Origin: a virus
DNA: 21,618 bases
IMG/VR virus record: IMGVR_UViG_3300027741_000305
Location: 1 to 21,618 of that record
Direction: 5' to 3' (one strand)
Notes under the pieces: model-generated
Told to the model about the DNA's origin: nothing
What the model saw: the letters and a program-made list of their open reading frames with translations, nothing else
Database searches by the model: none
Made by a program: the position numbers and the translations under genes
Part shown: positions 19,008-20,484 of the stretch, piece by piece
Position numbering within the stretch: position 1 is the stretch's first letter
How the letters are laid out: each line of letters starts with the position of its first letter

Positions 19008-19083
19008 GGTCCTATAGTGAAACTGGATATCACAGTAGTCTTCTAAACTTCTAGTCGAGGTTCGAGTCCTCGTGGGACCGCCA
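19008..19083 (+). tRNA. tRNA-Arg(UCU)
   Basis: A 76-base cloverleaf. The acceptor is GGTCCTA / TGGGACC, the T arm CGAGG-TTCGAGT-CCTCG, the anticodon loop CTTCTAA with anticodon TCT (reads AGA), the discriminator is G and CCA is encoded. The anticodon stem has one T-T mismatch (GTAGT / ACTTC). It would support AGA/AGG codons in this AT-rich genome. Confidence 0.92.
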
Positions 19084-20309: not shown

Positions 20310-20402
20310 ACACCCGTAGCTCAATGGTAGAGCGGTGAGCTTATACCTCATGATCGGCAGATTACCGAACGGTTGGGGGTTCGAATCCCTCCGGGTGTAC
20401 CA
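20310..20402 (+). tRNA. tRNA with anticodon UAU (Ile), 23-base variable region
   Basis: A 93-base cloverleaf: acceptor ACACCCG / CGGGTGT, D arm GCTC-AATGGTA-GAGC, anticodon stem GTGAG / CTCAT with loop CTTATAC (anticodon TAT, reads AUA), T arm GGGGG-TTCGAAT-CCCTC, discriminator A, encoded CCA. The region between anticodon and T arms (20352-20374) is 23 bases, where a tRNA-Ile has about 5. It can fold as TCGG-CAGATTA-CCGA or ACC-GAAC-GGT. Confidence 0.8.
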
Positions 20403-20407
20403 TATAA

Positions 20408-20484
20408 GGGCGTATAGCATAGCGGTCTAATGCCAGCCGCTCATAACGGCTTGATCGTAGGTTCGAATCCTACTGCGCCTACCA
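20408..20484 (+). tRNA. tRNA with anticodon CAU (Met or Ile2)
   Basis: A 77-base cloverleaf 5 bases after the previous tRNA: acceptor GGGCGTA / TGCGCCT (with G1-T72 and one inner T-G pair), D arm GCAT..ATGC, anticodon stem AGCCG / CGGCT with loop CTCATAA, T arm GTAGG-TTCGAAT-CCTAC, discriminator A, encoded CCA. It lacks the GGG/CCC anticodon stem of initiators. Lysidine-modified Ile2 or elongator Met cannot be told apart here. Confidence 0.92.

Follow-up and report, generated by a model that had tools for sequence, protein, structure and literature searches.

The tRNA-Ile(UAU) gene and its locus

The window, by which we mean the whole stretch of DNA analysed, is the 21,618-base virus record IMGVR_UViG_3300027741_000305. 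Its PHROGs matches include portal, head protease, scaffold, major head protein, helicase, SbcCD-like and clamp-loader genes; this gene set marks the source as a tailed phage, which we take to have T4-like affinity. ARAGORN finds three tRNA genes in the window, and Rfam agrees: a tRNA-Arg(UCU) at 19008–19083, a tRNA-Ile(UAU) at 20310–20402 and a tRNA with a CAU anticodon at 20408–20484. The last of these lies 5 nt downstream of the tRNA-Ile(UAU) gene, on the plus strand like that gene and all of its parts described below, and is called tRNA-Met; it belongs to the tRNA cluster and stands outside the structure considered here. With C29-G41 and C4-G69, it may be a tRNA-Ile2 instead of an elongator tRNA-Met.

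An earlier note, made from the letters of this DNA alone, had described the gene at 20310–20402 as a UAU tRNA with an intact cloverleaf and a 23-base variable region, and had proposed an ARAGORN run as a check. ARAGORN calls a tRNA-Ile(tat) of 93 nt at exactly this position, and the description is borne out by ARAGORN, Rfam and direct reading alike. The Rfam tRNA model RF00005 scores 62.2 bits over 20310–20399 and treats the extra bases as an insertion: 23 nt separate the anticodon stem from the T stem, 18 more than in a 5-nt variable loop.

The 5′ acceptor strand (20310–20316) forms 7 bp with 20392–20398, in keeping with acceptor-stem covariation among the related tRNAs described below. The D arm (20319–20333) is of class I type, with a 4-bp stem containing U12-A23 and a 7-nt loop. 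Linked to the D stem by nucleotide 26 alone is the first, 5′ anticodon arm (20335–20351, GTGAG-CTTATAC-CTCAT), which carries the UAU triplet at 20342–20344, U33, A37 and an unusual C38. It is followed by a second, 3′ arm (20354–20368, TCGG-CAGATTA-CCGA), a putative imitation of the anticodon arm of tRNA-Ile(GAU), with GAU at 20360–20362 and, at 20355/20367, a C-G pair equivalent to 29-41. A tail, ACGGTT (20369–20374), leads to the T arm (20375–20391; 5-bp stem, TTCGAAT loop), and the gene ends with the discriminator A73 and an encoded CCA (20399–20402). Second loop and T stem are 10 nt apart, the spacing spanned by positions 39–48 of class I tRNAs. RNAfold slightly prefers another fold of the variable region in the window tRNA (−30.4 kcal/mol, against −29.8 kcal/mol with the hairpin), and retains the second-arm hairpin in 143 of 236 minimum-energy folds of the family.

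A sequence error, which would have undone the observation, is contradicted by the occurrence of an identical tRNA in a separate IMG/VR contig (L218) and of near-identical ones in three further loci (L066, L061 and L090).

A tRNA family with a second, anticodon-like arm

Across all loci collected, at least 308 related tRNA genes were parsed in 308 loci, at least 236 of them distinct. The parser demanded at least 2 bp in the second arm, at least 4 bp in the anticodon and T stems, at least 6 bp in the acceptor stem and a GA(U/C)-type loop, and the loop and pairing counts among the 236 members are conditional on these demands; the viral-contig pattern scan, the species-genome scan and the anticodon-free scan all preselected AGAU. 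Carriers of the two-arm tRNA are phages of cyanobacteria, gammaproteobacteria and lactobacilli, together with some bacterial genomes. Long-variable tRNA-Ile genes occur in two Synechococcus phages and one Acinetobacter phage, and further named carriers are the Lactobacillus/Levilactobacillus phages LpeD, ENFP1, Lpa804 and 3-521 and the Stenotrophomonas phage DLP_6. The records of eight named carrier phages annotate the gene as a plain tRNA-Ile in five cases and leave it unannotated in three.

A stricter pattern applied to 84,980 bacterial and archaeal species genomes returned 99 stretches, about three quarters of which are tRNAs by eye; the 25 judged to be non-tRNA were excluded from the neighbour comparison. 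Genomic copies were found in Microbulbifer, Xanthomonadaceae, relatives of Roseobacter, Acidobacteria, Planctomycetota and others, some of them within tRNA arrays. Acidobacteria copies, for example, stand amid several tRNA genes (L248, L252, L266, L271 and L300), and a TrwC relaxase near the copy in L248 suggests that the tRNA array there lies on a conjugative element. In several Roseobacter and Acidobacteria members (L247, L256, L287, L233, L248, L271 and L300) the D loop measures about 4 nt, and in some of these the 8-9 linker is shortened too, the UAU loop and the GAU arm still being kept. Three tRNA-rich loci (L238, L285 and L290) encode related proteins of about 500 amino acids downstream of the tRNA, that in L290 being Ro60/TROVE-like. 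Six further loci matched by the species-genome scan (L225, L231, L261, L273, L293 and L303) share a conserved non-tRNA stretch, mostly from Nitrosopumilus or its relatives according to the record titles. A dedicated neighbour gene was considered and rejected: the chromosomal copies have no common neighbour across taxa, and a Pfam search of 20 neighbours gave unrelated families, including TrwC relaxase, KfrA and Ro60/TROVE.

The loop of the second arm has 7 nt and the form C-A-G-A-U-(U/A)-A, which, numbered as an anticodon loop, reads C32, A33, G34, A35, U36, U or A37 and A38. The stem is supported by covariation: in an alignment of 34 chosen sequences from the 57 representatives (the other 23, two GAC members among them, were set aside for unusual D arms, long 5′ linkers or loops that deviate), all four stem pairs changed on both sides, and the score of 0.791 was reached by none of 500 shuffles, which gave 0.172. 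Among 235 distinct members the loop is strongly conserved, with G34 and A35 in all 235, U36 in 232, C32 in 219 and A38 in 218. At the third stem pair, which corresponds to 29-41, 203 of the 235 members and 39 of 47 cluster representatives have C-G. Position 37 is U in 140 members, as in the window, and A in 79. Three of the 235 members have a GAC loop, the Val anticodon, as does Lactobacillus phage 3-521; every GAC-loop member noted (L157, L161, L179 and L391) has G33.

We compared the second arm with the anticodon arms of tRNAs from the same contigs, divided into 39 anticodon groups. Over positions 29–41 the best fit was to Ile-GAU, at +5.21 bits, with the runner-up at −7.59. When 34–36 were left out, Ile-GAU was still first, narrowly (−0.66 against −1.15 bits), the half-bit margin arising because A33 and U37 count against Ile-GAU. 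The 7-nt loop alone gave +2.3 bits for Ile-GAU and −4.54 for the next of the 39 groups. Furthermore, the C29-G41 pair is commonest in Ile-GAU tRNAs of these contigs (59%, against 29% in the next group).

A loop-blind scan of long-variable UAU tRNAs matched at least 118 places, of which at least 100 were tRNA-like and at least 59 distinct. Among the matches listed, 49 of 59 distinct tRNAs had a GAU-centred hairpin, compared with 258 of 11,800 shuffled variable regions (2.2%), and the GAU hairpin is therefore not a matter of chance. The remainder, among the same matches, comprised three with GAC and seven others, one of which (L016) has a GAU loop with a stem mismatch.

The bases retained in the second arm coincide with published Ile identity positions. 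A38 is part of the E. coli Ile identity set, and the determinant at 12-23 is U12-A23. For tRNA-Ile, PMC9976931 names the anticodon and A73 as determinants, with minor ones at C4-G69, 12-23 (printed there as U12-G23) and C29-G41, gives 29-41, 34, 35 and 36 as the informative positions, and lists t6A37 as a strong determinant in the E. coli set. The positions kept in the second arm are these same 29-41, 34, 35 and 36: G34, A35, U36, A38 and C29-G41 are present both in the window and in the family, and A37 is replaced by U in the window. The earlier note had noticed the insert, but had missed its likeness to the anticodon arm of tRNA-Ile(GAU).

The arm is also placed like an anticodon arm. Although the parser accepted anything from 6 to 16 nt, the second loop and the T stem are 9–10 nt apart in 235 of the 236 members, and the 39-48 spacing of 1015 out of 1099 class I tRNAs is likewise 9–10 nt. 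Among the 236, G occupies position 46 in 164 and a pyrimidine position 48 in 206. The spacing between the first arm and the second loop is variable, at 4–13 nt. The normal 3′ spacing, together with the junction of the first arm, indicates that the first arm joins the D stem and the second the T stem, each in the manner of a normal anticodon arm. Taking out either arm with its linker would leave a tRNA of normal length, and excision of one arm after transcription would produce an ordinary tRNA. The linkers vary, however, and we know of no bacterial system that splices so short a tRNA segment, which makes excision very improbable.

The spacing to the T arm has a bearing on decoding as well. Both arms might serve the ribosome, the UAU arm for AUA and the GAU arm for AUU and AUC, in which case one tRNA would serve all Ile codons; besides the normal spacing, a full CUGAUAA second loop in 5 of the 236 members is in line with this. 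We consider such dual decoding unlikely all the same: the U33 of the U-turn is replaced by A in 224 of 235 members, position 37 is mostly U, and the stem is often of only 3–4 bp. These sequence comparisons give good support, as far as anatomy goes, to a family of tRNAs whose anticodon arms stand in tandem.

The tRNA body and the reading of AUA

The long variable region had led the earlier note to two possible origins, an Ile(AUA) tRNA extended by insertion or recombination and a Leu-like tRNA with a changed anticodon, and to the possibility that AUA is charged with Leu. The tRNA does share with class II tRNAs (Leu, Ser and Tyr) a long variable region with a hairpin, 23 nt in the window, but differs from them in its class I D stem, in the 5–6 nt that, in most members, separate the hairpin from the T stem, and in the 7-nt anticodon-like loop. 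Positions 13 and 22 are paired in 89% of the family and in only 4% of Leu tRNAs from the same contigs, and the window, with C13-G22, does not have the Leu-type D arm that is without this pair. No member, out of 163 scored, fitted best as Leu or Ser. The body further shows A73 in 230 and C4-G69 in 127 of 236 members, U12 in 147 and A23 in 134 of 163. A73 also argues against serine charging, the bacterial Ser discriminator being G73 (PMC9976931, PMC7609411). An extra element within an Ile(AUA) tRNA accounts for the class II-length region and stands; the derivation from a Leu-like tRNA does not agree with the class I body.

Allo-tRNAs, with 8/4 or 9/3 acceptor and T stems, share the long variable arm and commonly UAU, the UAU ones being 8/4 (PMC7609411). 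This identity was rejected: the stems are 7/5 in the window and, by parse, in the family, with A73 and a class I D arm.

The meaning of AUA was approached through 4,194 protein alignments between carriers. Opposite AUA the residues were Ile at 0.331, Val at 0.191 and Leu at 0.148, similar to AUU/AUC (Ile 0.411, Val 0.189, Leu 0.136), whereas Leu codons stood opposite Ile at 0.088 and Leu at 0.538. These alignments draw on 307 sources and not on the window alone, and related pairs among them are not independent. By this comparison AUA is read as Ile in the carriers, a conclusion that concerns the codon and not directly the charge of this tRNA; the tRNA itself combines UAU and A73 in a complete cloverleaf. 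On a crude ORF call, AUA accounts for 50 of the window's 6,236 codons.

Charging with Leu has a precedent in the nematode nev-tRNA-Ile(UAU), which shares UAU and a variable arm with the present tRNA and is leucylated in vitro (PMC4300185). Its arm is Leu-like, however; that of the present tRNA resembles Ile(GAU), and the hosts are bacterial. Despite the long variable region and A73, a Leu-type or Leu-charged tRNA is, in our estimate, scarcely credible: AUA aligned with Ile and the class I body leave the suggestion of Leu charging unsupported.

We also considered, and rejected, replacement of lysidine by this tRNA. TilS scored above the cut-off in 14 of 16 carrier genomes, and at E≤0.001 in 15 of 16, in a test that is rough only, the TilS model having matched archaeal controls as well.

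Coupling of the second arm to UAU

To follow the arm independently of the anticodon, we scanned with the second loop fixed and the anticodon free. At least 66 new stretches were found, of which 29 were not parsed as tRNA, and all 28 distinct parsed tRNAs among the matches listed carried UAU. Exhaustive scans for long-variable tRNAs with two other anticodons gave, for GAU, 53 stretches with four distinct tRNA-like sequences, none of the four with the arm, and, for CAU, 17 stretches with one, also without it. Long-variable tRNAs with Lys, Asn, Thr, Gly, Gln, Glu or Cys anticodons were noted in eight loci (L089, L113, L141, L162, L164, L177, L251 and L371); these may be tRNAs of Ser- or Leu-like body that carry a different anticodon.

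This coupling bears on the idea that the GAU arm is a decoy, baiting a host or toxin RNase that cuts the anticodon loop of tRNA-Ile(GAU). Evasion of anticodon nucleases by means of phage-encoded tRNAs is reported, and the arm does copy an anticodon arm. A decoy would not need a particular tRNA to carry it, yet this arm was found only with UAU; it is also spread over many phyla, and no nuclease that singles out tRNA-Ile(GAU) is known to us. We judge that a decoy has a small chance of being the explanation.

Viral contigs also contain UAU tRNAs of the ordinary class I form, lacking the arm: at least 98 distinct ones (L394–L513), all with A73. The second arm is therefore not always needed. Their presence contradicts the statement, in a 2021 review, that UAU has been lost in prokaryotes and is absent from phages (PMC8007984). 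Class I UAU tRNAs occur in 19 bacterial species, including Mycoplasma mobile (PMC4013482). The bacterial class I tRNA-Ile(UAU) of Mycoplasma mobile and Lactobacillus plantarum has the same UAU, A73, body and Ile meaning as the two-arm tRNA, but is without the second arm; in the two-arm tRNA the first arm mostly has C38 and usually does not have C29-G41. In numbers, and between related sequences, C38 is found in the first arm of 211 of 236 members, against 16 of the 98 distinct armless class I phage UAU tRNAs among the matches listed; C29-G41 is found in 53 of 236 members (10 of 47 cluster representatives), against 40 of the 98. In the window the first, decoding arm has a G-C pair and C38 in place of C29-G41 and A38, and A38 is present there in 22 of 236 members. 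The pattern is consistent with the Ile signals having moved from the first arm into the second, with A73, U12-A23 and, in about half of the members, C4-G69 apparently remaining in the body.

The hairpin might instead bind another partner, such as a U34 or A37 modification enzyme, a phage protein or the ribosome, its likeness to Ile(GAU) being partly coincidence; it could, for example, restrain misreading of AUG. The association of C38 with the arm and the existence of GAC loops speak for such a partner, and the conservation of precisely the published Ile identity positions, C29-G41 included, at anticodon-arm spacing speaks against it. We regard this as a minority possibility, less expected than not by a wide measure, though a reasonable one to keep in view.

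Candidate roles of the two arms

For the rare isoleucine codon AUA, bacteria mostly rely on a CAU anticodon bearing lysidine. IleRS reads the anticodon, and a UAU tRNA therefore risks losing its charging; most bacterial IleRS enzymes recognise UAU poorly. We propose that the tandem arms answer this risk by dividing the work. The first arm, hung normally from the D stem, would read AUA on the ribosome through UAU. The second would supply a copy of the parts of tRNA-Ile(GAU) that IleRS uses, namely G34, A35, U36 and C29-G41; in the major tRNA-Ile(GAU) the corresponding arm, copied here at 32, 34–36, 38 and 29-41 with the same T-arm spacing, is the sole anticodon arm and has U33 and A37. Host IleRS would probably take the second arm as the anticodon arm, perhaps once it has displaced the UAU arm from beneath the D stem, and Ile would thereby be loaded on a tRNA whose own UAU would otherwise be a poor substrate feature. 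A33 may keep the GAU arm from decoding, and C38 in the UAU arm may weaken AUG reading or synthetase binding, which is a guess.

That UAU decodes AUA while host IleRS recognises GAU, so that Ile is charged by way of the GAU arm, is the likeliest of the readings considered, and one to which we give about even odds. The stronger version, in which two interchangeable arms serve the codon and the synthetase and the tRNA changes shape between enzyme and ribosome, seems to us possible but somewhat short of probable. Binding of the second arm by IleRS, the exchange of arms and poor UAU recognition as the underlying reason are what we infer from the arrangement of the sequences. Against use of the second arm by IleRS stand A33, the frequent U37 and the GAC members, all of which depart from the normal Ile loop. 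The armless UAU tRNAs of other phages and the energy fold of the window tRNA also count against it. The Lactobacillus phages, too, carry the arm despite the recognition of UAU by the IleRS of lactic acid bacteria, as reported in the title of a referenced paper.

We found no description of a two-arm tRNA-Ile(UAU) in the open-licence PMC literature, where the only variable-arm Ile(UAU) tRNAs encountered were the leucylated nematode ones. A widespread phage tRNA seems to solve the charging risk of UAU with a spare Ile(GAU) anticodon arm. If this is true, decoding and identity would be separated within one natural tRNA, an arrangement that would be directly testable in vitro and would offer a new design for engineered tRNAs.
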